DNA of 64,000 bases from Imbricaverruca yamaguchii (lineage: Eukaryota; Arthropoda; Thecostraca; Neoverrucidae), in the NCBI GenBank assembly GCA_034440575.1, contig JAOTOL010001614.1, positions 1,054,001 to 1,118,000 of the forward strand, in the 5' to 3' direction. The translations under genes were made by a program, and so were the position numbers. This document shows positions 4,264-41,223 of the stretch, piece after piece (positions within the stretch are counted from its first letter, which is position 1; every line of letters begins with the position of its first letter). Under the pieces are notes generated by a model. That model was not told where the DNA came from. It searched no databases and saw nothing but the letters and a program-made list of their open reading frames with translations.

Positions 4264-5397
4264 CTAGAGCTAGAGAGAGCTAGAGCTAGAGAGCTAGAGC
4301 TAGATCTAGAGAGCTAGAGCTAGATCTAGAGAGCTAGAGCTAGAGCTAGAGCTAGAGAGCTAGAGCTAGAGCTAGAGAGCTAGAGAGCTAGAGAGCTAGA
4401 GCTAGAGAGCTAGAGCTAGAGAGCTAGAGCTAGAGAGCTAGAGCTAGGAGAGCTAGAGCTAGAGAGCTAGAGCTAGAGAGCTAGAGCTAGAGAGCTAGAG
4501 CTAGAGAGCTAGAGAGCTAGAGCTAGAGAGCTAGAGCTAGAGAGCTAGAGCTAGAGAGCTAGAGCTAGAGAGCTAGAGCTAGAGAGCTAGAGCTAGAGAG
4601 CTAGAGCTAGAGAGCTAGAGCTAGAGAGCTAGAGCTAGAGAGCTAGAGCTAGAGAGCTAGAGCTAGAGAGCTAGAGCTAGAGAGCTAGAGCTAAGAGCTA
4701 GAGCTAGAGAGCTAAGAGCTAGAGCTAGAGAGCTAGAGCTAGAGAGCTAGAGAGCTAGAGAGCTAGAGCTAGAGCTAGAGAGCTAGAGCTAGAGAGCTAG
4801 AGCTAGAGAGCTAGAGCTAGAGAGCTAGAGCTAGAGAGCTAGAGCTAGAGAGCTAGAGCTAGAGAGCTAGAGCTAGAGAGCTAGAGAGCTAGAGCTAGAG
4901 AGCTAGAGCTAGAGAGCTAGAGCTAGAGAGCTAGAGCTAGAGAGCTAGAGCTAAGAGCTAGAGCTAGAGAGCTAGAGCTAGAGAGCTAGAGCTAGAGAGC
5001 TAGAGCTAGAGCTAGAGAGCTAGAGCTAGAGAGCTAGAGCTAGAGGCTAGAGCTAGAGGCTAGAGCTAGAGAGCTAGAGCTAGAGCTAGAGAGCTAGAGC
5101 TAGAGAGCTAGAGAGCTAGAGCTAGAGAGCTAGAGCTAGAGAGCTAGAGCTAGAGAGCTAGAGCTAGAGAGCTAGAGCTAGAGAGCTAGAGCTAGAGAGC
5201 TAGAGCTAGAGAGCTAGAGCTAGAGAGCTAGAGCTAGAGAGCTAGAGCTAGAGCTAGAGAGCTAGAGCTAGAGAGCTAGAGCTAGAGAGCTAGAGCTAGA
5301 GAGCTAGAGCTAGAGAGCTAGAGCTAGAGAGCTAGAGCTAGAGAGCTAGAGCTAGAGAGCTAGAGCTAGAGAGCTAGAGAGCTAGAGCTAGAGAGCT
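4264..5397. repeat. 14-bp GAGAGCTAGAGCTA satellite, about 1.1 kb
   Basis: A nearly pure array of GAGAGCTAGAGCTA with occasional 6- or 8-bp slips (GAGCTA doublets, a few AAGAGCTA and AGGCTAG variants). The unit is built of the palindromes AGCT and CTAG, so both strands read similarly. About 80 units. Confidence 0.97.
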
Positions 5398-7369: not shown

Positions 7370-7530
7370 GTGGTTATTGATTTTATGACACGTCGACCGT
7401 TCAATCATGTAGCGTCGCCAATCTCTCACGCCGTCTGGTCGCTGGCGAAAAGTAGCAACAGGTGAGAGTCGAACCCACAATCCTACGATTGTGAGACTAG
7501 CAGCTTACCTCTAAACGACCCTTCCCCCAG
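7370..7530 (-). repeat. SINE family 2 copy
   Basis: The minus strand starts at GGGAAGGGTCGTTTAGAGG and has a box-B-like GGGTTCGACTCTC. It continues with the family's body (GTCTGGTCGCTGGCGAAAAG on the plus strand) and ends with GTCGACGTGTCATAAAATC and an AATAACC tail. Clearly homologous to 10575-10739 and 32656-32820 but more diverged. No target-site duplication seen. Confidence 0.8.
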
Positions 7531-8456
7531 CACGGGGGCGATAGGCGGTGAAAAGTAATATAGCTGACAAACACTTTACATAGTGATTCGCGGGCAGGAT
7601 GTAGCACACACAAAATTAATCGAGAGAAAAGCAAGATATTGTCTATGTGCATTGCATTACCAAAACAAAACAAAATTACGAGACATCCTTTGGAATTCAA
7701 TGGTGCTAAATGGCAAAGAAAGAACACCGGAGAACAGAAACCGTCTATATCAAAAGTCTATGTTCAGCTAACGCCAAAATAGCTCGTAGAATTGCCTTAA
7801 ACACCACGCAATAATTGAAGTTAAAAATTACAACATTTCGCATACACGTAATATGCAGGGATGTAGTGTGCCCAAAGATATTCATAGATGTAATGTATGA
7901 GTTGCATATCGAGTGCGAGCTTTGCGCGGAAGAGTCGCGATAGACGGAGGAAAAGGAAGTGGCGGAACTAAATATAACGTTCAGAATTTACCGAGTTCCA
8001 TACCTTTTCACCACTTGCCTCCTCAAGCTCGATTCCCCTATATCTTATGAATTCTACGTTTTCCCATATATTTTACCACTCCCCTGTTTATTGTTTTGCC
8101 TACAGTCGTAACTGTTTCCCACTGACCACTTCCCTTCTCCAAATTCACACCTTGATGAAGTCGACGAAACTCGCACGCCCTTCGCAGTGTAGCAATGGCG
8201 AGCGGCAGCAGTGCCGATGCACAGTCGGAGGACAGAACGGCCTGCACCGACAGAAGGTAATCCTACAATCGAACACGCACCCGGTGGTTGCCTCTGAGCG
8301 TCTTTTTTCACTCGATATATATTCAATTCCCCGCAGTTCATCTCGAGCATGTAGATGGTGATAAAGTGGAGTCATATTTTAGGAGGCGGCTTTTGCAAGC
8401 ATCCCACTCGCCCGCCATTCTGGTTTGTTGCCAAGCTGGGACTGATGACACAGCTG
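7531..8456. other. unassigned sequence
   Basis: AT-richer unique sequence with no recognisable gene or repeat. Confidence 0.4.
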
Positions 8457-8958: not shown

Positions 8959-10574
8959 GCGGGGCGGCCGGGACACGTCGGAGGCGACAGGCCGGTCGGC
9001 CGCGCCGGCAGGTGGCTCCGCTCAGAGACGTCATAACCGGCGGCGAGGCCGACGCCCCCGCGGCCGTCGGAGCTCCGACGACTGTCCCGACACCTGGTGA
9101 CCTTGGCAGGAGGGCGTGTCGGATGAGCTCGTCAGACAAACTCAGCACACTGTTTCTAATCCATTGAGATCGCAGCAAATCACGGTCTGACCACACCGTG
9201 TGTAGCAGATCCAAGCGGTCGGCTGCTGCCGCGCTTAACGTATGCGCCAGAAGTGTGATAGTGGTGATGCCGATCCTGGTGGCCCGGACAGATACCCAAC
9301 AGCTGATGATCAGCCGGCGCGATGATACCGTACACAACGGACAGTCCGCCAGTAGAGCTATGCGGGCCACAGGTCGCCGACACTGTCTGCGATCTGCTGG
9401 TAATGATCTTCCGTCGGATGAACGTCTGACCCCTTCGTGACATATTAGTGGCAACGCAGACGTTTGACAGTAATTCAATGCTAATTGGTGTCAGCACCGT
9501 GGACGTTGGAAGAAGGGGCTGAAAAAATCAACACTCACTACAGCAGAGCCGTCTGGCTCAGAGTAAGATTGATCATAGTTGGAGTTGACGAAGCTATGAG
9601 TTGATGCCAAGAGCGTGGGAACCGGGCGGTGAAAAGATCAGTGCTCTCCCCATTAATTTTTGTTAAAAACTTTAGACGAGTCTATTTAGACGTTAGCATG
9701 GATGTTGAACGGGAAAAAATCGGCTTAAATATGCACCCTGCACCCACTGAACTTTGCAATATTCACGTGCCACTGGTGGTTGTTGAGCCGGCCAGTCGGT
9801 AGCGGGAGGTCATTTGCTGCGACGTGAGGCCGATCCCATCGCTGTGATATCGGTGGGTTTCCCTGACACGTGCCGCAAGCTGCAGGCCACAGGCCGCCGT
9901 CACCCCCTCCCCCAATGCTAGTCACAGGGTCACGTTACGGTTACGTCACGCGTCACCACCAGCCGCTGACCGGACTGGTGCCACCCCCTCGGCGGAGGTG
10001 CGCCACCGGCCCTGTGACACGTCACAGTGGCCTCAGTCACTGCCTGCGTCACTCCACCTGACCAGGGGCGTGCCGGGAGCAGGCAGGCACGTGATGTCAC
10101 CAACTCACGAGTCCGGGCACGTGACGTGACGACACGTGACGGAAACACACGGAAGCCTCTGCGGCTTTTTCGCGTGAAGAAAATCACCGGCTCTCGTGCT
10201 GGCTGCGCTGAGCACTTTACAAGGAGGTGAGAATGGCGGCTGCATGTGAGAATTGTCCTCACGGACGAGGCGGGGTCTGGACGGGGACGAGTGAAAACGG
10301 CTTGCTGTGGAAACGGAGCAGATCTGCTTCCCGTGGTCGAAGAATCGGTATGCACAATTGCTGCCGATTTCGAATGTAGTTCTCGCCAGCCACTCCACAC
10401 TTACACACTCAAGCTAGTGTAACATCTGGCTAATTTACCATTTTTCCGGAACCTACTTCACTTTAGTCCATGTTTTCTCCAGCGGCTCACCCGACTTCGA
10501 TCCGACTGGCGGTGGCAATGCATACACCTCAAAACTGATACCACCAAACTGGCGATCACAGTGGGTGACCCAGT
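8959..10574. other. unassigned sequence with CACGTG/GTGAC-rich stretch
   Basis: No gene recognised. 9915-10145 is rich in GTGAC/GTCAC words, including GGGCACGTGACGTGACGAC and ACACGTGACGG. They resemble the words at 3720-3890, 31020-31100 and 36830-36850. Confidence 0.4.
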
Positions 10575-10739
10575 CGGTTGGTGGTCACTGGTTTTACGAC
10601 ACACCGACCGTTGAGTCATGCAGCGTCGCCTATCGCTCACGCCGATTGGTCGCGAGCGAAGAGTAGCGACAGGTGAGACTCGAGCCCACAACCTTTCGAT
10701 CGTGAGACGGGTAACTTACCCCTAGACTACTCGTCCCCC
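10575..10739 (-). repeat. SINE family 2 copy
   Basis: Minus-strand head reads CGAGTAGTCTAGGGGTAAG, where TAGTCTAGGGG fits the pol III box A. A box-B-like GGGCTCGAGTCTCACC follows. The body is shared with 7370-7530 and 32656-32820, then GGCGACGCTGCATGACTC, GGTCGGTGTGTCGTAAAACC and a CCACCAACC tail. A target-site duplication is not obvious. Confidence 0.85.
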
Positions 10740-13172: not shown

Positions 13173-13327
13173 CTTTCCGTTCTCGCGGGCGTACTGGCCG
13201 GTCAACAGCGAGTGGAACACAATGATGGTCTCGTCCAGGTCCCAGATGAAGATCCGGTCGATCTTCTGGGCCAAGTCGTCGTCGGGGGACGGCTCTCCCC
13301 GTCGCCGTCGACGGCTCGTACTCCCAC
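13173..13327 (-). CDS. eya: eya exon: linker and start of EYA phosphatase domain
   Basis: 155 bp between acceptor CCCGTCACAG and donor GTCGGTAC. The first two bases (GT) complete a Gly codon with the previous exon's last G. It encodes a run of five Arg ([11 protein letters not shown]), possibly a nuclear-localisation patch, then [10 protein letters not shown] and the catalytic-domain start [19 protein letters not shown]. In the HAD motif DLDET the first Asp is the nucleophile position and the second the acid/base position; both are present. The exon ends in phase 0 after ENGK, where the vertebrate family reads YGK or YGR. The basic, Pro/Ser-rich linker before the domain also matches the family. 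No satellite touches either splice site, unlike the upstream exons. Confidence 0.96.
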
Positions 13328-16300
13328 CTGTGACGGGGACGCCGGAGTCACGGCTGCATCACGCGACAGGCGGCTGCCTCACGCCGCAGTGACGTCACAC
13401 CAGTGTTGCGTCACTGCGGCGTTGAGAACAGGGGGAGGTCACTTTAAAGTCGTACTTTCGATGTCATGTTACAAGGGTAGTTTTACGTGTCTACAACTTA
13501 GAGGGGTATATTGGTTAGAAACATGAACAAACCCTACTAGGTAGGTCAGTATCAGCAGATGAGAATATAAGGTACCGTTAGTAAGTTAGTTTTTTAGCTT
13601 TAGGGCACGTCGACAACTATGGCCATATTGTGCCCAACTATGGTACCTAAAGCAAATGACAGAACGCTGATGTCACAACAGAGCTATGATTAGTCTTTCA
13701 GGGAACATGAAGCAATCGTTAAATACTAGTAACGTTCGGTGCCAAATACCGCTTCTCAAATATTTATCGAAAGTACCAGGTACAGTCGTATAGATTTCTG
13801 CATTTTTGTGGAATGAATATGACAACGTGCTGCAATATATGACTATTACCGTCATCGCACAAAGTTTGTTGTGAAAAAATGTGAGAAATCTACACATCCT
13901 TCACCGTGAGGATCCAATGAAAATATTATGTGTAAAACGGAGATTAAATAAAACCCGATGGTGTCTGCAGGGCGAATCTGGACTCAGTGCCAAAATAATC
14001 GCCATGAAAGGTAACAATAAGCCCGGCAAAGGGGGACGGGGATGGACGAGAAGCAAACATGTTGAGCTCTGGGCGCTGAAGGTTCCGGGTTCAACACTCG
14101 CGCCACTCGGGACATTTCCCAATCGCGCGGCCCACCGGCGAAGCAGTGTGGGCGGCGCCATTAACCGTGATCGTGCATAAAGTGCGTCGAAAACCACCCA
14201 ATAAACAAAGAAGTCTGACAAAGGTCCGAAAACAACGACCCGCGCGTGCAATAAACCCGGACTGCGCCGTACCCATGACAACCGCGTGGGCCATGACAAC
14301 CGTGTAGCCATGACAACCACGTGGGAGTCCGACCGGACACCGCCCGGCGGACGGAGGCCAGCGGCAGCTTTAAGGGCGGCCGAGCCGGCCACAGAAGTTC
14401 ACCCTCCCCCCTCAGAGTGGCCGCACTCTGCTTACGGCCGTCAAAAACAGGCGATCGGCTGCCCCCCCCCCCCCGAACCCGGTGCGGGATGCCGGCGGCT
14501 TGCGCGAGTTGGGCAGCGGCGCCTCAGCGGAGCAGCTTACTTCCGTTGCTGTTGCGTCTCCGTCGGCCCGTGCCCAGCGTCGGCGAGTGGTGCAGGAACG
14601 GAGTCGACTCGGAGAACTCGGAGCCTGGAACGCGCCGTGTCGAGCATATCAATATACGATCCGGAGCGGCCGGCTGGCCGTGTAAACATTCATCGCGAGA
14701 GCGCTGCACATTTCGCGAAACCCATGTCATGAACACAACTACATAAACACACACAGACCGACAGCCAGAAATAAATCGAGAGAGGTCCAGAGATCATTAT
14801 CCAGGCTTCACTAATGAGGGTTGATTATCCAGGGCTCATTACGCGGTGGTTTGTAGAAAAACGTTTGCAATCGCGACGAAGAATAGTAAAATATGCTTGG
14901 AAGTTTCCACCTTAAAGGAATTTGGAAAGACTTGTTTCGTTGATCAATCTAGCTGGGGAGATGATTTTCGTGATATCACAATGTCACAAGCTCACGCTAT
15001 TAAACACTGCATTCAGCGATGAAACGAAATAAACCTTTTTGCATGTGTATGTGCTCCACAGCGACTTTGAGCATTGCGGTACCGACTTCAGCACTTTTTC
15101 ACCGACCACTTTACTTTTGATTCGAAACATATTGGGTGGTGTCCCCTAAAGTGGTGATTGTCCCCTCAAATTTATTTCGTGTTCACCCCCCCCAAAAAAA
15201 AAAAAACCCTCAGCAATCTGAATATGATGGCCACAAAGTCATACGCAATAATTTTTAGTGAAAATAAATATAGATATAAATATATGTATATACAATCAAC
15301 GAGCTTCTATGGGTTATCTGTCGTCACAAAATCTCCGAATAGTAAATCAGCAAACAGAAATGTTTGCTTCCGGGCCATTCTTGAATAACATGAACCTTGA
15401 CCATCGTGTGTTCTGGCTTGGGTGGAAAATTGCCCTTTGTGTGGCAACACATTTGCATTATCGTAAGATTTTATACATCTTAGGTTGTATTCTCCTGCGC
15501 ATGTATTGATATGTGTTGACGAAACGTGACTGGGTGCATTTTCTGGGTGCAGTTTCCTTGGGTATCTTCAAGACCATGGAGGGGAGTTCCGGATAGCCCT
15601 AAGCACACACGTCAAGTTAACGTCGTATTCGCATTCGTGTTCAGCGACGAGTTCACCAGTGGCGTATTTGTATTGGCATTGGCATTGAGCGACGAGTTTA
15701 TGATCGCTCGAATCAATTACCACAAATGCTTCTGCTTGCACTGAATTGAACACGCTGGAAACGATTACATGGTTCTCGCATTACCACTTGAATGGTCAGG
15801 GTCCAACGCAAACCGGTTTCTTCGGTAGCCTCCTATTTTTTCCGTTTTCTCCAAAACCTGCCAAATATGGCCACAGGCGGTAACGCGTGATGAACCATCG
15901 TGTAACATTTCAAACCGGTAGATGCCAAAGTTAAACTTCAAGGTCAAAGGCAGCGCGATTTATTAGATGACGATATTAAAGCGATATCGGCCGAACGCGC
16001 GATTCGGTTGCTATCACATCAAATTCCATCAAATGAACGTCATTCGATGTGGCTTGTTATGCTGCATCAGAAAGATAAGCAATCAATTTGTTGTCTAGGG
16101 GCAAAGGTTGAGCTGACCCTTCGATCGCCTCAATATTTTTTTTTCGTTTTCGCTCAAACATATCCAAATTGGTATCAAGCCAGCGCCAGCGGTGAACGCT
16201 CAGTAACATTTCAAACCGGGACATGTCAAGGTTGAAGGTTTCACTGAGTTTCTTTTTCTCGATGGCCTCGCGTTTCGTCGCTATGGTTTCAATTTGCAGA

Positions 16301-19300
16301 AAACAGATGTCATTCGACGTCGCTTTTTGTGCGGAGCCAGAAAAATGAAAAATGTCAGCAATAATCACGACTGGCTAAAATTCAAGCTGATTTCTTCGAT
16401 CGCCTCACACTTTTTTTTTTGGGGGGGGGTTCGCCAAAGCATACCCAGATCCGCTATCAAGCGATACCCCATGATGAACCTTCGAATAGCATTTTGAAAC
16501 TGGGATATGTCAAGGTCAAACCTCAAGGTGAAAGACTAGTTTTAATTTTCGAAGACCTCGAAGCCACTCGTCAATTTACACCAAGTGGGTGTTTTTAGAC
16601 GTGTCTTGTGCCGTAGCATAATGCAACGAAATCGTACTAATTTCAAAGGTCGAAGGTCAAACCGATCAATTTCGCCTCGCATTTTTCATTCGAAGGGTCG
16701 CCTTTTCCCGGCCGGTGGAACTACACTTTCCATGTGGGTGGCACATGTCCTAAGTGCCATACCCTTTATCCGACCTGGTTGTCATTGCATCAAAATTTCT
16801 CACCGTAAAACGGGAAAGAATGGGAAAGGTTTTTGGGTGTCTATATGTACTACAATAAAACCATAGTCACATATTTTATTTTTGCCTGCTACAAGTGGGC
16901 AACGTCTAACGTACTGACGGCGTTGCTCTGCAGTGGTTGTGAAATCGGGACAAGCACATGCGACATAAAACTGGATGTTCAAAGGCAGTGATAAGGAGTA
17001 AAACTTGTGGCTGAAATCCAAGGATTTTTTTTCGGGGGGGGTTAAGGCCCCTCTATCCTGTCCAAGCTTACCGCGTCTCTAGTTTGTCCCCCCCCCCCAT
17101 TTCGAAACCGTAGTTACACCCATGTTGACAATATAGCATAGGTAACAATTCACATATGCCACATCCAAGTCTCTGTGTGTTAAATCAAGTCGCACGTGTT
17201 GTATGGTAAGGAAACACGTTCTCGCCGTGCCATCTGCTGACCAGACATCTCCTTGCCACAGGATCCAGGGGCCAAAAATTAACCCACCGTGCAATCTGTG
17301 GACCAGACACGTTCCCACCATTGGGTCCAGGGGCCAAACATTCACCCACCGTCCAGTCTGTGGGCGAAGCACGTCTCTACCACAGGGTCCAGGGGCCAAT
17401 ATTTCACCCACCGTAACGTCTGTGAGCTAGGCACGTCTCTACCATATGGTCCAGGGGCCAATCATTTACCCACCGTGCAGTCTGTGGGCCAGGTACGTCC
17501 CGCCATAGGGTTCAGGGACAAAACATTAGCCCACCCGGGGCCCAGGGGCCAAGCACTACCCACCGCGGCGTCTAGGGGCCAGATACGTCCCCACCGCGGG
17601 GCCCAGGGGCCTAACATGTCCCAACCTCCGGATCTAGGGGACGGACACGTCCCCACCCTGGTGTTGGGGGGCCGGACACGTCCCCACCATGGTATCGGAG
17701 GGCCGGACACGTCCCCACCCTGGTGTTGGGGGGCCGGACACGTCCCCACCATGGTATCGGAGGGCCGGACACGTCCCCACCCTGGTGTTGGGGGGCCGGA
17801 CACGTCCCCACCCTGGTGTCGGAGGACCGGACACGTCCCCACCCTGGTGTCGGAGGGCCGGACACGTCCCCACCCTGGTATCTGGGTGCCGGACACGTCC
17901 CCACCGTGCGGACACCACCCACCGTCCGATGTAGAGACAGCCGGCAGTGGCGCCAGGTGGTAGGTCTGCGCCGTGACGGCCGACCCGCCGCTGGACAGCG
18001 TGTGGGCGCCAGTCGCCGGCGCGCCGTACGAGCTGAACCCAGCGGCGCCGTAGTAAAACGCCTGCGGCGAGTAGGTGGAGTAGCCGCCGTAGTCGGCAGC
18101 AACCTGCCGGAGTCAGACGAGAGTCGGACGAGAGTCGGACGAGAGTCGGACGAGAGTCGGACGAGAGTCGTCGGACGAGAGTCGTCGGACGAGAGTCGTC
18201 GGACGAGAGTCGTCGGACGAGAGTCGTCGGACGAGAGTCGTCGGACGAGAGTCGTCGGACGAGAGTCGTCGGACGAGAGTCGTCGGACGAGAGTCGTCGG
18301 ACGAGAGTCGTCGGACGAGAGTCGTCGGACGAGAGTCGTCGGACGAGAGTCGTCGGACGAGAGTCGTCGGACGAGAGTCGTCGGACGAGAGTCGTCGGAC
18401 GAGAGTCGTCGGACGAGAGTCGTCGGACGAGAGTCGGACGAGAGTCGTCGGACGAGAGTCGTCGGACGAGAGTCGTCGGACGAGAGTCGTCGGACGAGAG
18501 TCGTCGGACGAGAGTCAGACGAGAGTCAGACGAGAGTCAGACGAGAGTCTGACGGGAGTTGGACGGTGTCGGACGGGAGTCAGATCCGATGGGTCAGATG
18601 GGGTTCGACGGGGTCAGATTGGGAACGGCGGGGTTACTGTCGAGGATGTACATATACTGTAAGTGCATTCATTGACTGGTGGCAAAGCCAGGGACCACAG
18701 GCGGGCCACAGGCGGGCCAACGACAGGCAATCGAAGGACCAATGGGCACACGCAAGATGCACTGAAAAGAAAAAGGATCGCTGAACGGATCAGGGATCAT
18801 CAGAGGTCAGGACACATCAGACATCACTGACTGAGGACAGGGTTCAGTGACCTGGACTCGCAACCAGATCACGTGTGGCGGTCGGCGGCATGGACCAAGG
18901 TGCCTAAACCAGGGCACATGATATGACGTGTGTGGTGACCGGTGACCCTGACCAGAGTGCCTGACAGGACAGGTGTGATGACCAATGGTGACCCGGACCA
19001 GGGGCACATGACATGACATGTGTGGTGACCGGTGACCCTGACCAGAGTGCCTGACAGGACAGGTGTGATGACCAATGGTGACCCGGACCAGGGGCACATG
19101 ACATGACATGTGTGGTGACCGGTGACCCTGACCAGAGGGTCTGACAGGACAGGTGTGATGACCGGTGACCAGACCAGGGGGCCTGACAGGACAGGTGCGA
19201 TGACCGATGACCGGTGACCGGTGACCGGTGACCGGTGACCGGTGACCCAGGCCCGGCTGCACCCACCTGCTGTGAGACGGCCGAGTATGCCGCCTGGTTG

Positions 19301-22300
19301 AGCGGCGGCGCCGCCAACCCTGAGCCGCCGCCGTAGCTGTAGGCCGCCGACATGTAGGTGTTCTGGCCGGTCTGAGAGACCGCAGACGAGCCCAGGCCGC
19401 CGCCGTACGGCGTCAGGAAGTTCTGGCCCAGGCCGGACGTCCGCTGCTGACCCCGCTGACCTGGCGACACAGCACCACAGACGTCACACGGGACTCTGGC
19501 GTCACGAGTCGACGTCACGCGTGACGGCCATCGTACGGCTTTTGTTGACAACACGTTTGATCAGCTCAGCGTCTATCACAAGGGGGCCGGCCATATCCCT
19601 CTCCCTGCTTAAGTTGTTCTCATCAGTGTGCCGATATATTTTATGAGGCGCCCCCCCGAACACACACCCTAGTTCGCCCTCCATGACGCGGTCCAGCTAC
19701 ACCACAAAGACACCCGAGGGTGGACATGCAAGGTACTCAGTGCACCACTCATGCTACGGGTGACAATAAACGCCATTCAGTAGCCCTTGAAGGGCGGAAT
19801 AAACAAATGCATGGCACTTACATGTGACATGTGGCAGCTTACTGGGCGCCAAATTGGCCCGATAACGGTTCATCGATAGGCGTTCCTGTTTGAATATCTC
19901 TGTCTCAGGAACTAGTAACGCTGTACAGGGCGACCTTCGGTGAAAAGTCCATAGACGCTATTTTGTAATTGTACTGGAGCCTGATTATGACCTTTGTCTG
20001 GTCAGGCTAGGTTACAACGTCTAACGGTGCTGTTTCAAGAAACGTAACATGGCTACACCACGAACTATGAATGTCAAACATAGCAAGACTGTGGCATAGC
20101 TCTTGAAATGCTGAATATGGCACCATAGGATATTGATGTATGTGGAGAGGTCGAGGATCTGATGCGGTAAAACGCCGTCACTAGTCAAGGTGTCCTTATT
20201 TCCTTCACGCTAAAACGCTGCCATTATATCCTTAATCACCTACCATGATCAGCCAAGAGAACACCATCGCGTCAACTGATATGAACAATAAGTGGACAGT
20301 TTCACAGCTCCTATTTGCATACATGGCGGAGATTGCGTGGGTGCAGCAGCAGCTCCGCAGTGCACTTGCTAAGTCCTCTGAAGGTGAGCGAACTTGATGT
20401 ACCGTACCATTGCCGTGCTTTAAGCAGTACTGGACACGAATATAACGGCAACAACCAACCATAAACATCAGCCCAGTACGCTTGAACGTTTGTGCACGCC
20501 TTACACAAGGCCATGGTCATAACTTGGATGCTTGCGCCAGGAACACATGCCTCCACCGGCAATCAACTAGATGGCGCAGTGCAGATAGCATAGCCAGACA
20601 ACGTTGGGGTGTCACCTACTGTTGAATGGCGAGCATTAAGGTGTCACTTACTCACACCGCAACGGTTGCCATAGATGGTTAATTAAGGTGCTACTTATTG
20701 CCACTAAGATGTCACATTTTGACCCCACAACGGCTGCCATAGATGGCGAATGGAGGTGTCACTGTCATTAAGGTCCCACTTAATGGCTCCATGACAGCTC
20801 CCACGGGTGGCAAATTAAGCTTCCACCTATTGCCCTTCTGGCATCGCTTACTGGCCCCACGACTGCCATAAATGGTGAATTAATGTCCCACCTACTGTCA
20901 TTAGAGTCCCATTCGATTCCACAGCCGCTGCCATGGATGGTGAATGGGACTAGGCCTGCTTTGGCGTTTCACATCAGAAATTAGGACGAACGGATGGACA
21001 CTGCCGACGAAAAGACCTCGTCCCCAAGGTTATTTCGTGTGCTGAGTGGATTTTTGTCAAGTTTGTGTGCCTGCAGCAAGTTGAATTTTCGACCTGTCCG
21101 CCGATCGCAACGAATGCGTTGTTTGACAATGGCCTATGGTAGAAACGTCGTGATAAATATCTACATTTTTTCTAACATTGACTCGTTCCTGGATCTAGAA
21201 GATCAATTTAGCTGTTAATATATCCACAACAATGACTGGCCAGGAAATACAGGCATATCTGAACTACGTACGTTATACATTATTCCGTCCCATCAGCCCC
21301 GTCTTAGGTCCGATCTCCGGTTCGCTGGCCACATCCGAACCGTGAGAACCTGGGAAGTGGAACTTAGCGAACATGCCTAGCCTGTATTTTGAAACATTGT
21401 ATTAACAGTCCAGCATGATCGGAAACACATCCAGTTGTCTGGATGTGTCAATGTTTTCAGCATGTTTTGCCGCTTCCGTCGCTTACCTGGATGTTAGTCT
21501 AGGCACAGGTGCATTTGTGATAATGCCGAACGGAGAAATAATATGCGAAAAAAGCAGCCTTAAATAAAACCTAGGGGAAATTGCGTTTAATGCATGTTCC
21601 AATGATCGACTTTCCCTGAGTTATCGCGGGAAGAAAGGCATCGTGTCGACAGTACAGCACGGTATCGTGGGGGGGTAGGGCATCGTGTCGACAGCACAGC
21701 ACGGCATCGTGGGAGGGCAGGGCATCGTGTCGACAGCACAGCACGACATCATGTCGACAGTACAGCACGGCATCGTGGGAGGTCAGGGCATCGTGTCGAC
21801 ACCACAACACGACATCGTGGGAGGGTAGGGCGTCGTGTCGACAGCACAGCACGACATCGTGGGAGGGTAGGGCGTCGTGTCGACAGCACAGCACGACATC
21901 GTGGGAGGGCAGGGCATCGTGTCGACAGCACAGCACGACATCGTGGGAGGGTAGGGCGTCGTGTCGACAGCACAGCACGACATCGTGGGAGGGTAGGGCA
22001 TCGTGTCGACAGCACAGCACGACATCGTGGGAGGGCAGGGCATCGTGTCGACAGCACAGCACGACATGTCGACAGTACAGCACGGCATCGTGGGAGGTCA
22101 GGGCATCGTGTCGACAGCACAGCACGACATCATGTCGACAGCACAGCACGGCATCGTGGGAGGGCAGGGCATCGTGTCGACAGCACAGCACGACATCATG
22201 TCGACAGTACAGCACGGCATCGTGGGAGGTCAGGGCATCGTGTCGACACCACAACACGACATCGTGGGAGGGTAGGGCGTCGTGTCGACAGCACAGCACG

Positions 22301-25300: not shown

Positions 25301-28300
25301 TAAATGATGTCCACAGAAGATGTGGTAATTCTTCGAGATAGTAAAGCGCGGAATTGCCGTCAAGTGCGTTTGCGCACCTCTTCACTTCATGATTCCGACA
25401 AAGTTATGGTCGTGTTCGCCGATATTCCTGGACCTTTTTTAGCTAGACGGGAATGGAACAGAGCTTAAGCAATAATTACCAGCTTATTTTGTTTAGGTTG
25501 GCGTCATTTTCTGTTCTCAGGACCGCATCGTTTAAAAATCAATTCTAAGACATTTTTTTATAAAGAATAGAAAGATACTGATCCAGATTATGATTGAATC
25601 CTGAAGTTGATGTTCGGGATGCCTTACATGTAGGTGTTCCACATGGTTAGAGTATTTCCTATGGGTTGTGTCCTACATTTAGATGTTGTGCATGATTAGA
25701 ATACTTGCTATGTACTGTGAGGTACATGCGCGTAACTAGGGTACTTACTGTTGGCTGTGCTGTACATGCAAGTGTTGTGCGTGGTTAAAGTACTGAATGT
25801 GGGCCGTGCCGTACATGTAGGTGTTGCACATGGTTAGATTACTTACTGTGAGATGTACCGTATATGTAGGTGTTGTACATGTAGGTGTTGCAGCACATGG
25901 TTGGAGTACTTACTGTGGGCCGTACCGTAAATGTAGGTGTTGTTCACGTAGCAATTGTACATAGTTGGAGTACTTACTGTGGGCTGTGCCGTACATGTAG
26001 CTGTTGTACATGGCTGGCGCCTGCAGGCAGGCGGCCGGTGACGCCTGGGAGCCGTACCCCTGCATCGACAGGCTGAGGGACACAGAGCAGGCTGGTCAGG
26101 CTGGGGATGGGCACCGACTGCCGCCGACGTGAATCTGCCACTGACGTGACTCTGCCACTGACGTGACGCTGCGTCAGACGTGACACTGCCACTGACGTGA
26201 CACTGCCACGGACGTGACGCTGCCACGGACGTGAACCCGATACTGACGTGACTGCCACTGACGTGACGCTGCCACTGACGTGATTATGTCACCAACGTGA
26301 CTACCACTGACGTGACTCTGCTACTGACGTGCTGCGTCACTGACGTGACGCTGTCACTGACGTGATACTGCCACTGACGTGTCTCTGCCACTGACGTGAC
26401 ACTGCCACTGACGTGACACTGCCACTGACGTGACTCTGCCACTGACGTGACTCTGCAACTGACGTGACACTGCCACTGACGTGACGCTGCCACTGACGTG
26501 AACCCGATACTGACGTGACTGCCACTGACGTGACGCTGCCACTGACGTGAACCCGATACTGACGTGACTGCCACTGACGTGACGCTGCCACTGACGTGAT
26601 TATGTCACCAACGTGACTGCCACTGACGTGACTCTGCTACTGACGTGCTGCGTCACTAACGTGACTGTCACTGACGTGACGCTGCCACTGACGTGATGCT
26701 GCCACTGACGTGACGCTGTCACTGACATGATACTGCCACTGACGTGACACTGTCACTGACGTGATACTGCCACTGACGTGACTCTGCCACTGACGTGACT
26801 CTTTCACTGACGTGATGCTGCCACTGACGTGACTCTGCCACTGACGTGATGTTGCCACTGACGTGATGCTGCCACTGACGTGACGCTGCCACTGCAGGCT
26901 GCTGGAACTTTCCAATGGCATTTGATGCAGACAAATGCCATTGCAAAGTTGGAATCTATGAGGCGCTAGGGTATTCATAAATAGAGAATCATAGTCGATT
27001 TGGACCATCATTAACGATCCCCATGGCGGCGCGGGGATGGCCGAGTGGTTAAGGTGTTGGGCTCTGGGTACCAAAGGTCCCGGGTTCGACACGAGCGCCG
27101 CTCCGGACATTTCCCAATCCCGCGACCCACCGGCGATACAGTGGGCGGCGTCATTAGCCATGAATATGCAGAAAGTGCGTCGTGAAGTACCCAATAAACA
27201 AAAGCGATCCCCATGAAAATTGATTATTTGAGCGAAAATACTGGAAAGCAATCCCGTTCCAGCCACTCAGAAAAGTCTTATCATAGCCGAGTGCTCGAGA
27301 GCAGGCTCTCCCTCGTCGCCCTGAGCCCTCCGCAAGCCAGAGCAGATTAACTGTGCCGACATGTGTTCCGTTGTTAGCAGCACTAGGGCGCCACGCACCA
27401 GGGCGCCACCAGGTCACACACCAGAGGAAACACACTAGGGTGCCACGTCTGCGCAGAATGGGTCACGAGCCTGAGGTGCAGGGGCGGGGATGCCGAGTGA
27501 TTAAGGTGTCGGACTACGGGTATCAAAGGTCCCGGGTTCGACACTAGCGCCGGTCAGGACATTTCCCAATCCCGCGGCCCACCGACGAAACAGTGTGGGC
27601 CGTGAATTGCATAAAGTGCGTCGTGAACTGCCCAATAAACAAACAGAGCCTGAGGTGCAAATGGCACGGCTCCAACCACACTGAAGTCCGGTCGCGAATG
27701 TTACCGGGCCGAGTATACTGGAATCGAATGGCGAGCAGCTGATATATATGTCCTGCCGGTGTGCGTCATGCCAACTGTGTCATCTGATGATCGGTATCCA
27801 GCCATCTGATGCCCAGTATCCGGCTGTACAATTTGCTGATTGGTACGTGACTATGTCATCTGATGCCCGGTATGTGGCTGTGTCACTTGATGCACGGTAT
27901 CCGGCTGTACCATCTGGTGCCCGGTATCTGGCTATACCATCTGATGCCCGGTATCCGGCTGTACCATCTAGTGCCCGGTATCTGTCTGTGTCATCTGATC
28001 CTCGGCACCTGGTCGTATCAGCTTATCGTGTGCACTAGGCACGTTCTCTGACCAGCTGAATGTTTCAGATGCCTACGTCTCTGACCGACCTCTGCCGATC
28101 GCAACTCATGATCTCTGACCTCTGATTTTGCAGGCACTATACCAGTGCAAGACCCCACTTGGGGGTTTCGACAAGCGAGAGCAAAAGGGGGCTGAGTGGT
28201 CCCGGTGCTGCAGACACAGCATGTGGCACCACACCGCTCTCGACACCGAGCGATGGTGGCGAGGTGGCGGCCACCACAGGTGCGTGGCATCACACCGCTC

Positions 28301-31300
28301 TCGACACCGAGCGATGGTGGCGGGGTGGCGGCCACCACAGGTGCGTGGCACCACACCGCTCTCGACACCGAGCGATGGTGGCGAGGTGGCGGCCACCACA
28401 GGTGCGTGGCATCACACCGCTCTCGACACCGAGCGATGGTGGCGGGGTGGCGGCCACCACAGGTGCGTGGCATCACACCGCTCTCGACACCGAGCGATGG
28501 TGGCGAGGTGGCGGCCACCACAGGTGCGTGGCATCACACCGCTCTCGACACCGAGCGATGGTGGCGAGGTGGCGGCCACCACAGGTGCGTGGCATCACAC
28601 CGCTCTCGACACCGAGCGATGGTGGCGAGGTGGCGGCCACCACAGGTGCGTGGCATCACACCGCTCTCGACACCGAGCGATGGTGGCGAGGTGGCGGCCA
28701 CCACAGGTGCGTGGCACCACACCGCTCTCGACACCGAGCGATGGTGGCGAGGTGGCGGCCACCGCAGGTGCGTGGCATCACACCGCTCTCGACACCGAGC
28801 GATGGTGGCGAGGTGGCGGCCACCGCAGGTGCGTGGCATCACACCGCTCTCGACACCGAGCGATGGTGGCGAGGTGGCGGCCACCGTAGGTGCGTGGCAC
28901 CACACCGGTCTCGACACCGAGCGATGGTGGCGAGGTGGCGGCCACCGCAGGTGCGTGGCATCACACCGCTCTCGACACCGAGCGATGGTGGCGAGGTGGC
29001 GGCCACCGCAGGTGCGTGGCATCACACCGCTCTCGACACCGAGCGATGGTGGCGAGGTGGCGGCCACCGCAGCGTGCGTGGCATCACACCGCTCTCGACA
29101 CCGAGCGATGGTGGCGAGGTGGCGGCCACCGCAGGTGCGTGGCACCACACCGCTCTCGACACCGAGCGATGGTGGCGAGGTGGCGGCCACCACAGGTGCG
29201 TGGCACCACACCGCTCTCGACACCGAGCGATGGTGGCGAGGTGGCGGCCACCGCAGGTGCGTGGCATCACACCGCTCTCGACACCGAGCGATGGTGGCGA
29301 GGTGGCGGCCACCACAGGTGCGTGGCATCACACCGCTCTCGACACCGAGCGATGGTGGCGAGGTGGCGGCCACCACAGGTGCGTGGCATCACACCGCTCT
29401 CGACACCGAGCGATGGTGGCGAGGTGGCGGCCACCGCAGGTGCGTGGCATCACACCGCTCTCGACACCGAGCGATGGTGGCGAGGTGGCGGCCACCACAG
29501 GTGCGTGGCATCACACCGCTCTCGACACCGAGCGATGGTGGCGAGGTGGCGGCCACCACAGGTGCGTGGCATCACACCGCTCTCGACACCGAGCGACGGT
29601 GGCGAGGTGGCGGCCACCGCAGGTGCTAACTGCGGACTTGGCATGCAGTCACACACGAGTGGGCCATCACAGACAGGCTAACCCAGCGCAAGAAGTAGCA
29701 AAAAAAGATTTTCTCTGAACGCCAATGGTGTGAGTACTTCGAAGGAATGATTGGGTTTAAACTCGAAAAATAACCGATGAAAAAGTAAGTTTAATTGTCG
29801 GTGAAGAGAGTAGACCTAACGTTGCAGCGAACAAAATATGAAGGCTTCGAAACCGTGACGATCAAGACTCATGTCGGGCCGGAGCGTGGACGCTCACATG
29901 ACCTTCGTTGCACGACACACGGAAGTAGCCTCGCTCCCTGATCAATTTCCTCTGTTAACGTCATGGCAGCTCCTCTGATAAGCAAGGCTCTTTCATCTAT
30001 GACCTTAAAACGACATTTGGCCCTTCCTATCTCTTCAGACATCCACATGACCGCTGTCCAATCTCTCTCTGGCATCCTCAGGTACCCGTGTGTGCAGGTC
30101 TCATCTCTTCAGGTACTCGTGTGTGCAGGTCTCATCTCTTCAGGTACTCGTGTGTGCAGGTCTCACCTCTTCAGGTACTCGTGTGTGCAGGCCTCACCTC
30201 TTCAGGTACTCGTGTGTGCAGGTCTCACCTCTTCAGGTACTCGTGTGTGCAGGTCTCACCTCTTCAGGTACTCGTGTGTGCAGGTCTCACCTCTTCAGGT
30301 ACTCGTGTGTGCAGGCCTCACCTCTTCAGGTACACTGTGTGCAGGTCTCACCTCTTCAGGTACTCGTGTGTGCAGGTCTCACCTCTTCAGGTACTCGTTG
30401 TCAATCAGCTACTCTTCAGGTACTCGTGTGTCGCGTCTCACCTCTTCAGGTACTTGTGTGCAGGTCTATCTTAAGGTCAGGTCTCACCTCTTCAGGTACT
30501 CGTGTGTGCAGGTCTCACCTCTTCAGGTACTCGTGTGTGCAGGTCTCACCTCTTCAGGTACTCGTGTGTGCAGGCCTCACCTCTTCAGGTACTCGTGTGT
30601 GCAGGTCTCACATCTTCAGGTACTCGTGTGTGCAGGTCTCACCTCTTCAGGTACTCGTGTGTGCAGGCCTCACCACTTCAGGTACTCGTGTGTGCAGGCC
30701 TCACCTCTTCAGGTACACGTGTGTGCAGGTCTCACCTCTTCAGGTACTCGTGTGTGCAGGTCTCACCTCTTCAGGTACCCGTGTGTTCAGGTCTCACCTC
30801 TTCAGGTACTCGTGTGTGAAGGCGTCAGAGCCGGCCGACGAGATGGCGGCCGGCTGGCCGGCGGCCGGGTCAGAGCCGTAGCCGCCGAACACCAGCTCGC
30901 CCTGGCCGGTGGTGCCGGCGTGCTCCAGCAGGGCGTCAGAGTAGGAGCGCTGGTAGCAGTCGGGCGACACGGACGGCTCGTGCTTGGTGACTGCCGGAAC
31001 ACACACGTCGGCACAGGGTCACGTGCTGTCGTCACGGCCAGTCTTCAGATGTCGCATGTCGTCACGTGACGTGTGTCACGAGTCACGTGCCGTATGTCGC
31101 GTGTCATACGCGCGACAAATTACGCAGGTGGTGTCGACCTATATATCATATGGAGCCAAGGCAGGATCTAAACTGCCACAGAAGGTTATGAAAATATAAA
31201 AAAGTACGCTTGGTTAAGAAGTGTTATTGCAGGTGACAGGCAGTCACAGGGACATGCCGAACATAAATCACTGACGATCGGTTCAGGTAATGAGATGCAG

Positions 31301-34300
31301 GCATACTTATAAGTGAGCAATAGCTATGCCTGCAAGGCCACGGCAAGTTCATACATAATAATGCACAGTAAGGCTATTTAAATGGGGTCCGACAGCGGCG
31401 GGGCCAATACTTCGACCGCGCGACAAAGTGCTCTCCAAAATGGATCATGTTGGCAACAGGCGGTCCTGGCGACGAGAATGGGCTGTGAAGTCATTTTCAC
31501 CAGAAGTTCATTTGTAGCATAAGTGCAATGGTGTGTCGAACTCCGGAAACCTTATGAAAGACCCAATGCGCCAGTGGATGTCATTTAGCTCTTTTTCTGA
31601 AAGGCTGGGCAAATTATGCTTCTGGCGACTTGAGGCCTATACATTTAAATAATTCCTGGATGCCCTCCTGCTTGGTAGTCGCATCACCAGGGTGAAACGT
31701 TCAGTATATTCAAGGCAGCATCGATTTTGAACTCACAAACAATCAACTTGAGAAAAATTCGCTAAATACTAAGTCACATCACACAAATTTTGATAAACCA
31801 AACACAGAATGTTACAAAATGGCGACGTGTCGACCGATTTCCGGAGCAGTCAAGGTTATTAAATTCCAGATATGCCGTATGTAGTTTGTGCGAGACCGTC
31901 CTGCTGATATATGAATTGGATAACGTCGGCTTATCCTTCTTGTAGAGACACCTAAAGCCGTGGGGCGGCCGCTTTACTGAAGATGTCCACGAGCTGAAGT
32001 ACAAAAGGCGGAAAAGGGGGCTCTAACCAGCGTAGCGCAGTTCAGACGGCCTCGGGAGTTAATTCCCATCCTAAGGTTTAGTCCGATTGACTTCAGAACT
32101 GCTGATGACATCACATTGAGATGTGACGTACACGCACAAAACTGAATCGCGCATCGCTTCCTGCTAGATTTGACCCACCACCACGTCCGGTTCCGGCGTT
32201 CCGACAAGTCACCGTAAGCCCTTCCCCTCCAGCCGAACAGCCTTTTTAGTTCCATCTCAGAACATGTCGCAAACACGCAAGCAAATCAAACATGTTCACA
32301 ATAAAGACAAGGACAAGTGAGGAATATGATGCATGGAGGATTGACTACAGAAGAATACCAAGATAGCTAAGTCAGTGTATGGTGGCGAAATAAGAGATAA
32401 GCAAAGCATAAATAAATAAGAGTATGTGACGTACAATATCTAAATTCTTACAACATAGGAAAATTAAGAAAATCAGGCGCATGTTCCAAAGATATTTTAG
32501 TCATTCCTGCAGAACGACGTTCATTAACGTGAAGGCATCTGTCTGGTAGGGTGTGCCGCCGTACACGGGTATCTGGCGGTGCAGTCTACCCAGCTGACAG
32601 GTAAGTCACCAAATGAAATCGCGCCACTGCACTTGATGCGTGCTGGGCGAGGGGTTGGTTGGTTGGTTATTAGTTTTACGAGACATCGACCGTTGAGTCA
32701 TGTAGCGTCGCCAATCTCTCACGCCGATCGGTCGCGGGCGAAGAGTAGCGACAGGTGAGACTCGAACCCACAACCTTTCGATTGTGAGACGAGCAACTTA
32801 CCCCTGGGTTACTCGTTCCCCTGGGCGAGGGGTGATTTAAGGATTATAGAGGTTAGCGAATTGTATGTCCCTATCACTCTAGGTGTATATATTCTGCCAA
32901 AAAACTGCCGTCAATAAAGGTCCTGCTGTAGGTGCATGCTCAAAGAGTTTTATAGTTATGCCGCTTAAGCATATAGGTATAGTTATGCAGTTATAAGCAT
33001 ATAGTTATAGTCCGCTTATAGTTATACCACTTTCAGTGATTGCGAACACGAGTGTCACATTGTGAAATTGATTGGGGAAGGGAAATTGATATCTTATGGC
33101 ATTTTTATCCGGATAGGGGCGCTATCGTTAGCAAAAAAAAACTCCATCAACGGGGCGGGATGCACTCGAGCGTTCTGTAAGGGGCCCTTCATTGGCCTAA
33201 TGGTTAGGCTTTGGTTTGATTGGGATACAAATGAATGATTCGGGGCTAGTTGTCCCTGAGAGCGTACACCGCTAATTGCGAATGAGTAGCAGCTATTTGT
33301 CCATCATGCAAAGTGGGAGCCGTGATCCTCTTCGGTGGCCACAGTCAGATAGAATGTTATGACACGGGTTGGGGTTTGTTTATTTTACTCCTGGATGAGA
33401 AGGATATTTGCGAGTGTAGAGAGGATATTTTTTCAAATATGTGACATCAGACACTCAGGTTACACTTTCCAGTGAATCTTGAGTGCTGTCATAAAGCAGT
33501 TCGTTGTCAAGCAGCACCATTCAAGTGGCAAAAATAAGAGGACAGAAGTCACAAAAAGGATAATTTTTTCCCGAAAACTATAATGTTCTGGAAGTAAAAA
33601 AAACAGGAACGGACTGTTTTCCCGGCGCTGTCTATGACACCATGAAACACAGTTCAGTCACAACATCGTCAAGGTGTACCACAGCCGCGGTACGCAGCAC
33701 TCCTACCAGTTAGCTTTTGCCGGTAGCACTTCGAAACACCTGCTGAGCTGGTTAGGATCATGTTTGGACTCATGGTGAGTTTTTTAAACACTGCTGTCGA
33801 TATCGGAGAAGTTGGCTCTACATATTTGGCAACGCTATGTTCTGCTTCCAGGTTGGAAAAAAAAGAATTGTAAGAGAAACGCGAATTCTAGCAACCGTTA
33901 AATTATTTGTCCCTCTCATTTAATTGAAATTTTTACTCTGGATGAGGAAAACTTGAGAGACCACCCACCGGTCCCAGGAGACCAACCACCGGTCTCGAGA
34001 GACCACCAACCGGTCCAGAGAGACTATCCACCGGTCCCGAGAGACCACCCACCGGTCCAGAGAGACTACTTACCGGTCCCGAGAGACCGCCCACCGGTCC
34101 CGAGAGACCGCCCACCGGTCCCGAGAGACCACCCACCGGTCCCGAGAGACCGCCCACCGGTCCCGAGAGACCGCCCACCGGTCCAGAGAGACTACCCACC
34201 GGTCCCGAGAGACCGCCCACCGGTCCCAAGAGATCGCCCACCGGTCCCGAGAGACCGCCCATCGGTCCCGAGAGACCACCCACCGGTCCCAAGAGATCGC

Positions 34301-41043: not shown

Positions 41044-41223
41044 GTTTGTTTGTTTGTTTATTGGGTGGTTCTCGGCGCACTTTATGCACGATCACGGCTA
41101 GGACTCCGCCCACACTGTTTTGCCGGTGGGCAGCGGGATTTGTTCATATCCCGAGCGGTCCGAGTGTTGAACCCGGAACCTTCGGTACCCAGAGCCCAAC
41201 ACTTTAACCACTCGGACATCCCC
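41044..41223 (-). repeat. SINE family 1 copy
   Basis: Complement of the family: TTTGTTTGTTTATTGGGTGG tail at left, GGGTTCAACACTCGGACCG box B region, and CCACTCGGACATCCC (box A complement) at right. The tail is (TTTG)n, longer than at the other copies. No clear target-site duplication. Confidence 0.88.

Follow-up and report, generated by a model that had tools for sequence, protein, structure and literature searches.

The eya gene of the crustacean Imbricaverruca yamaguchii carries, at the end of its exon A, a minisatellite built of that exon's own splice donor. We analyzed positions 1,054,001 to 1,118,000 of contig JAOTOL010001614.1 (assembly GCA_034440575.1), a stretch of 64,000 nucleotides referred to here as the window. 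In it, Tandem Repeats Finder (TRF) detects a 31-bp tandem array running on the minus strand from the end of exon A into the intron. Each unit comprises 21 exonic and 10 intronic bases, so that the repeat spans the exon–intron boundary. Compared with published cases, the array falls into a known class of boundary minisatellites, the mirages. With a probability of roughly 80%, we regard it as a neutral, unstable minisatellite of this type, tolerated through use of the first donor. The two elements concerned are:

30798..30990, minus strand: eya exon A, 193 bp with an open frame; acceptor CCGGCAG|TCACC, donor AAGAG|GTGAGACC, phase 2; joined in phase through exon B as far as the EYA domain.
30086..30797, minus strand: intronic section of the donor array, holding 23 copies of the 31-bp unit, of which 17 have an intact GAG|GTGAG; the repeat extends over exon bases 30798–30818.

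TRF reported a period of 31 at 30078–30467 and 30478–30822, and periods of 62 and 93 across the whole of 30078–30822. Cut at the anchor GTACCTGA, with the exon end counted as copy 0, the array contains 24 copies, the exon end and 23 intronic ones, in agreement with a preliminary description of this DNA. Copy 0 matches the consensus CACACACGAGTACCTGAAGAG|GTGAGACCTG at all 31 bases. Of the 24 copies, 11 reproduce this 31-bp consensus exactly, the genuine donor copy among them (identical from −21 to +10). The remainder of the array is less regular: copies carry substitutions, and the stretch at copies 10–13 is interrupted. In a search of the 767-Mb genome, all 13 occurrences of an 18-mer from the array, ACCTGAAGAGGTGAGACC, lay inside the eya array; this exact search led to a single locus and recovered no second allele. 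The array itself is far beyond chance. Some details of the preliminary description needed correction. It had rightly recognized an exon and donor here but placed the donor at 30798, which is the last exon base, the first intron base being 30797. The exonic part of the unit is present as described, with a length of 21 nt instead of about 19. The genuine donor does belong to the array, as its first copy in transcript order and not the last of 24. Folding five units gave −43.7, compared with −43.1 for shuffles (standard deviation 3.9), and so was not more stable; Rfam at gathering thresholds and a tRNA scan gave no matches in the whole window.

The gene carrying the array is identified as eya from its predicted protein, as had been proposed. 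Eleven predicted exons (A, B, C, D, E, ED1, ED2, ED2b, ED3, ED4, and ED5) join at all ten predicted junctions over 71 kb into 499 residues with no stop, giving a partial gene model. Here and in the chaperonin genes discussed below, junctions were predicted from sequence. The first EYA-domain exon (13327–13173) matches the solved human EYA2 and EYA3, and more EYA exons lie on the same strand in 200 kb of flanking sequence. Three more exons between exon B and the EYA domain, a basic one and two rich in Tyr/Ser/Gly, came from a codon-usage scan trained on the exons already identified. Exon A and the first EYA exon each matched 0 Pfam families. The further exons in the window are:

25978..26072, minus strand: eya exon B, 95 bp, phase 2 in and phase 1 out; acceptor CCCTCAG|CCTGTCG, donor CCCACA|GTAAGT.
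19267..19460, minus strand: eya exon C; an array starts 19 bp past its donor, with no exon sequence in it.
17923..18103, minus strand: eya exon D, flanked by arrays at distances of 17 bp (donor side) and 19 bp (acceptor side).
14541..14624, minus strand: eya exon E, a basic exon containing GRRRRNSNG.
13173..13327, minus strand: first EYA-domain exon; human EYA2 4egc, E=8.4e-12; tblastn 6e-13 with EYA1.

The EYA domain is strongly diverged: exons after the first share about 37–48% identity with the human and fly sequences, and a 14-residue stretch is kept.

Because the eleven exons join stop-free through 30797, we take the donor at this position to be the genuine one, which gives a continuous Eya protein. 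The 21-nt coding part of the unit joins in phase to the next exon, which supports the earlier proposal that the exon boundary was the source of the unit and seeded the array.

There are 18 occurrences of the motif GAG|GTGAG[A/G]: one is the genuine donor, with 30797 as its first intron base, and the other 17 are decoys. Decoy junctions would start at 30766, 30735, 30704, and onward. Scored with a weight matrix, the genuine donor reaches 9.8 bits and four decoys 10.2, and the first two decoys have the same score as the genuine site, which bears out the previous count of 18 equivalent donors. Two more of the 23 intronic copies have weaker donors (8.2 and 6.5 bits), and four have none. Use of any decoy, like intron retention, would reach a TGA directly after ...CTGAAGAGG. 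This TGA and the resulting truncation had been noted before, with the 3n+1 length of the unit named alongside; a phase-2 AG|GTGA donor always gives TGA, and the unit length is therefore irrelevant. For a comparison of columns we used 17 of the 20 copies of 31 bp, leaving out three with more than four differences as well as the four copies of other length. Variant cells numbered 8 of 153 in donor columns versus 3 of 374 in the other columns of the array (Fisher p=0.003, with donor columns the more variable ones; the copies are not independent). Four of the eight variant donor cells trace to a single change at +6, common to the copies concerned, and it leaves the donor no weaker. The decoy donor columns thus lack extra conservation, and nothing marks the decoys as maintained.

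These data bear on whether the array acts as a splicing-level dose switch, in which the decoys would either titrate U1 or send a regulated fraction of transcripts to the TGA, so that more copies meant less Eya. Eighteen equal donors, each with a stop immediately after it, would suit such a device, and human IFI6 provides a precedent for repeat donors in use (excerpts of PMC4526556). We nevertheless consider it unlikely and do not prefer it, because the decoy donors are not conserved above the rest of the array; in addition, boundary arrays occur at the background rate in unrelated chaperonin genes, and the array at the next eya donor, that of exon B, has decayed. A dedicated switch, one of two options put forward in the preliminary description, is not supported.

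Nor is there support for the eya array as a singular device, since other eya boundaries and chaperonin genes are alike. The same genome yielded six TCP-1 chaperonin stretches. In these, one donor (locus L032) has a 96-bp duplication with 49 identical exon bases plus the donor, and another lies in a 30-bp array. At L033 (about 4844–5266), nine 47-bp units precede a chaperonin exon, and the acceptor CCGTGCGCCAG|GT appears eight times exactly and once with a mismatch. A seven-unit acceptor array at L035 (2604–3150), outside the junctions counted below, closes with two units that share 47 identical coding bases. It recurs on the reverse strand in L036, in 96%-identical assembled copies that are alleles or paralogs, with differing unit lengths and seven units each; these possibly represent allelic variation of a boundary minisatellite. 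The copying of clearly coding exon ends at the L032 donor (49 bases) and the L035 acceptor (47 bases) speaks against the reverse order of events at eya, in which an older intronic array gave the donor, the exon grew into the first copy, and the array thereby seeded the exon end. The 31/31 match of exon end and array consensus would fit that order too, which we judge quite improbable. Similar arrays at other loci, one of them in two assembled copies of the same gene, also make it barely credible that an expansion or collapse error in assembly produced the eya array; copy numbers of long arrays are often wrong in assemblies, but here the copies differ by substitutions and include the interrupted stretch.

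The genome as a whole (767.5 Mb; G+C content 51–54%, with 52.7% in 264 kb and 51.2% in 45 kb) appears rich in such repeats. The window has a very high minisatellite load, with 51 merged tandem arrays covering 33% of positions 1–64000, and tandem repeats cover 25.5% of 264 kb and 31% of the eya span. Compared with the latter figure, only 68 of 1431 exon bases in ten eya exons lie inside TRF arrays. To set boundaries against this background, we counted tandem copies spanning a splice boundary within 500 bp on the intron side and compared them with random intron positions. The pooled sample held 36 donors and 36 acceptors, 11 of each from eya and 25 from the chaperonin genes (4 of 29 predicted chaperonin junctions were excluded for a length misfit to the family gap). 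At threshold 31, spanning copies were found at 7/36 donors (6.2 expected) and 1/36 acceptors (6.3 expected), the latter rising to up to 4 under looser criteria. Taken separately, eya had 4/11 donors (3.0 expected) and 0/11 acceptors (3.1), and the chaperonin genes 3/25 donors (3.3) and 1/25 acceptors (3.2). Threshold 28 gave pooled values of 8/36 donors (6.6) and 2/36 acceptors (6.9), and threshold 36 gave 5/36 (5.6) and 0/36 (5.8). Counts by score only were 3/10 donors and 0/10 acceptors against a null of 0.22 for ten eya exons at threshold 32; 4/11 donors (null 0.275) and 0/11 acceptors (0.284) for eleven eya exons at threshold 31; and 3/25 donors (0.134) and 3/25 acceptors (0.127) for the chaperonin junctions. 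Two L033 acceptor arrays that are plain by eye fail the spanning rule, reaching just 3–5 bases into the exon. In this sample the frequency for donors matches the background and that for acceptors falls below it, a depletion uncorrected for threshold choice. That a donor lies inside an array is not beyond chance in this genome. We tentatively suggest, at somewhat less than even odds, that tandem donor copies arise and persist as freely as copies of any other intron position, with acceptors looking depleted.

In the history we favor, a 31-bp segment straddling the boundary, 21 coding bases at the end of exon A plus the adjoining 10 intron bases, would have undergone head-to-tail duplication and then spread into the intron. 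Minisatellites make up between roughly one quarter and one third of the sequence examined in this genome. Growth into coding sequence would be harmful, and selection would therefore bar the array from the exon and keep the true donor exon-adjacent and first in the transcript. This donor would be used as the earliest transcribed and as the one paired with the exon body and the upstream acceptor, while transcripts spliced at a decoy would meet the TGA immediately and be degraded or truncated. Since the first two decoys equal the genuine donor in score and donor columns are the more variable ones, the choice would seem to be made by order or exon context, as if decoy strength were irrelevant.

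Several points weigh against this account. Local sequence gives the first donor no edge, as 11 copies are identical over 31 bases. Classic duplicated-donor experiments reportedly often favored the intron-proximal copy, and not always the first site. In our first count, covering six eya exons, 4/6 donors reached a score that about 20% of random positions also reach (acceptors 1/6 at the same score level, the ED3 acceptor then being placed elsewhere); attraction of arrays to boundaries was suggested by this count alone and found no support in the larger counts. Finally, in excerpts of PMC4526556, human IFI6 (6-16, G1P3) uses two downstream repeat units as donors as well, yielding three mRNAs. 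Some decoy use at eya is therefore plausible.

The array shares with IFI6 the character of a donor-site minisatellite, a human example of which was reportedly published in 1995. The IFI6 unit is short and frame-keeping; the eya unit differs in its 31 bp and in the in-frame TGA that would at once truncate any decoy product. Amphioxus mirages provide a closer likeness: in both, units are part exonic and part intronic, and many keep AG/GT signals (17/23 intronic copies at eya). Excerpts of PMC3087553 and PMC3902484 describe mirages in Adh3, troponin C, the globins BflGb6 and BflGb9, and PGBD5, with splicing said to be undisturbed; the excerpted part of PMC3902484 adds PGBD5 as a case and states that Adh and troponin C make no aberrant mRNAs. 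First-donor use at eya would fit these precedents. The eya array departs from them in having 24 copies at one donor and several affected boundaries in one gene, and in that the background rate was measured. As far as these excerpts go, mirages have so far been reported in cephalochordates. Among the literature matches listed, none concerned boundary minisatellites in a crustacean; the earthworm metallothionein minisatellites are, in an excerpt of PMC12783039, intronic and not boundary repeats. What may be new here is the extent of the phenomenon within one genome, together with donors being hit like any other intron position.

Mirages have also been linked to intron gain by tandem duplication of AGGT-containing exon segments (excerpt of PMC3087553). 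As in that model, the eya tandem duplication crosses an AG|GT boundary. Unlike in that model, in which one segment supplies both intron ends, the eya intron ends 4.7 kb away at the exon B acceptor CCCTCAG|CCTGTCG, which is not a copy of the unit, and we saw no sign of a new intron formed by AGGT duplication at eya.

If tandem donor copies do persist as freely as suggested above, roughly a fifth of donors would face at least one decoy of near-identical local sequence, and splicing would choose among them by transcription order or exon context. With 18 equal donors, eya would be the cleanest natural test of this: 11 copies including the genuine one are identical from −21 to +10, and what makes the right donor win therefore cannot be the site itself. 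Together with similar loci, and given RNA data, it would put first-transcribed and proximal-site models of donor choice to a direct test. Boundary minisatellites would also appear to follow from a high minisatellite load and not from a peculiarity of lancelets.

Further boundary repeats occur within eya. The first lies at the next donor:

25600..25977, minus strand: degenerate donor array following exon B, the second such array, with some seven copies if the exon end is included, mostly 49–67 bp apart; TRF rows at 25741–26012.

It contains three extra GTAAGT donors, CACA|GTAAGT at 25913 and 25846 and AACA|GTAAGT at 25748. The ED3 donor has one duplicate and the ED4 donor at least one clear copy. 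At the ED3 acceptor, the genuine site forms the final unit of an array with a 35-bp period and 14.7 copies (G000:C1381, about 1040045–1040538, in L010), whose units carry CCGCTCCAG|CAGCTACA or variants; CCAGCA[AG]C occurs in it five times, including the genuine site, and CCAACA[AG]C four times. Short-unit arrays at 18123–18516 and 26118–26894 end 19 and 45 bp upstream of the exon D and exon B acceptors, respectively, and may supply pyrimidine-tract or branch-site context. Elsewhere in the window, short dispersed repeats of two families with tRNA-like heads, by eye resembling short interspersed nuclear elements, lie at 7371–7542, 10573–10739, 14038–14212, 27028–27202, 27481–27643, 32654–32836, and 41050–41223.
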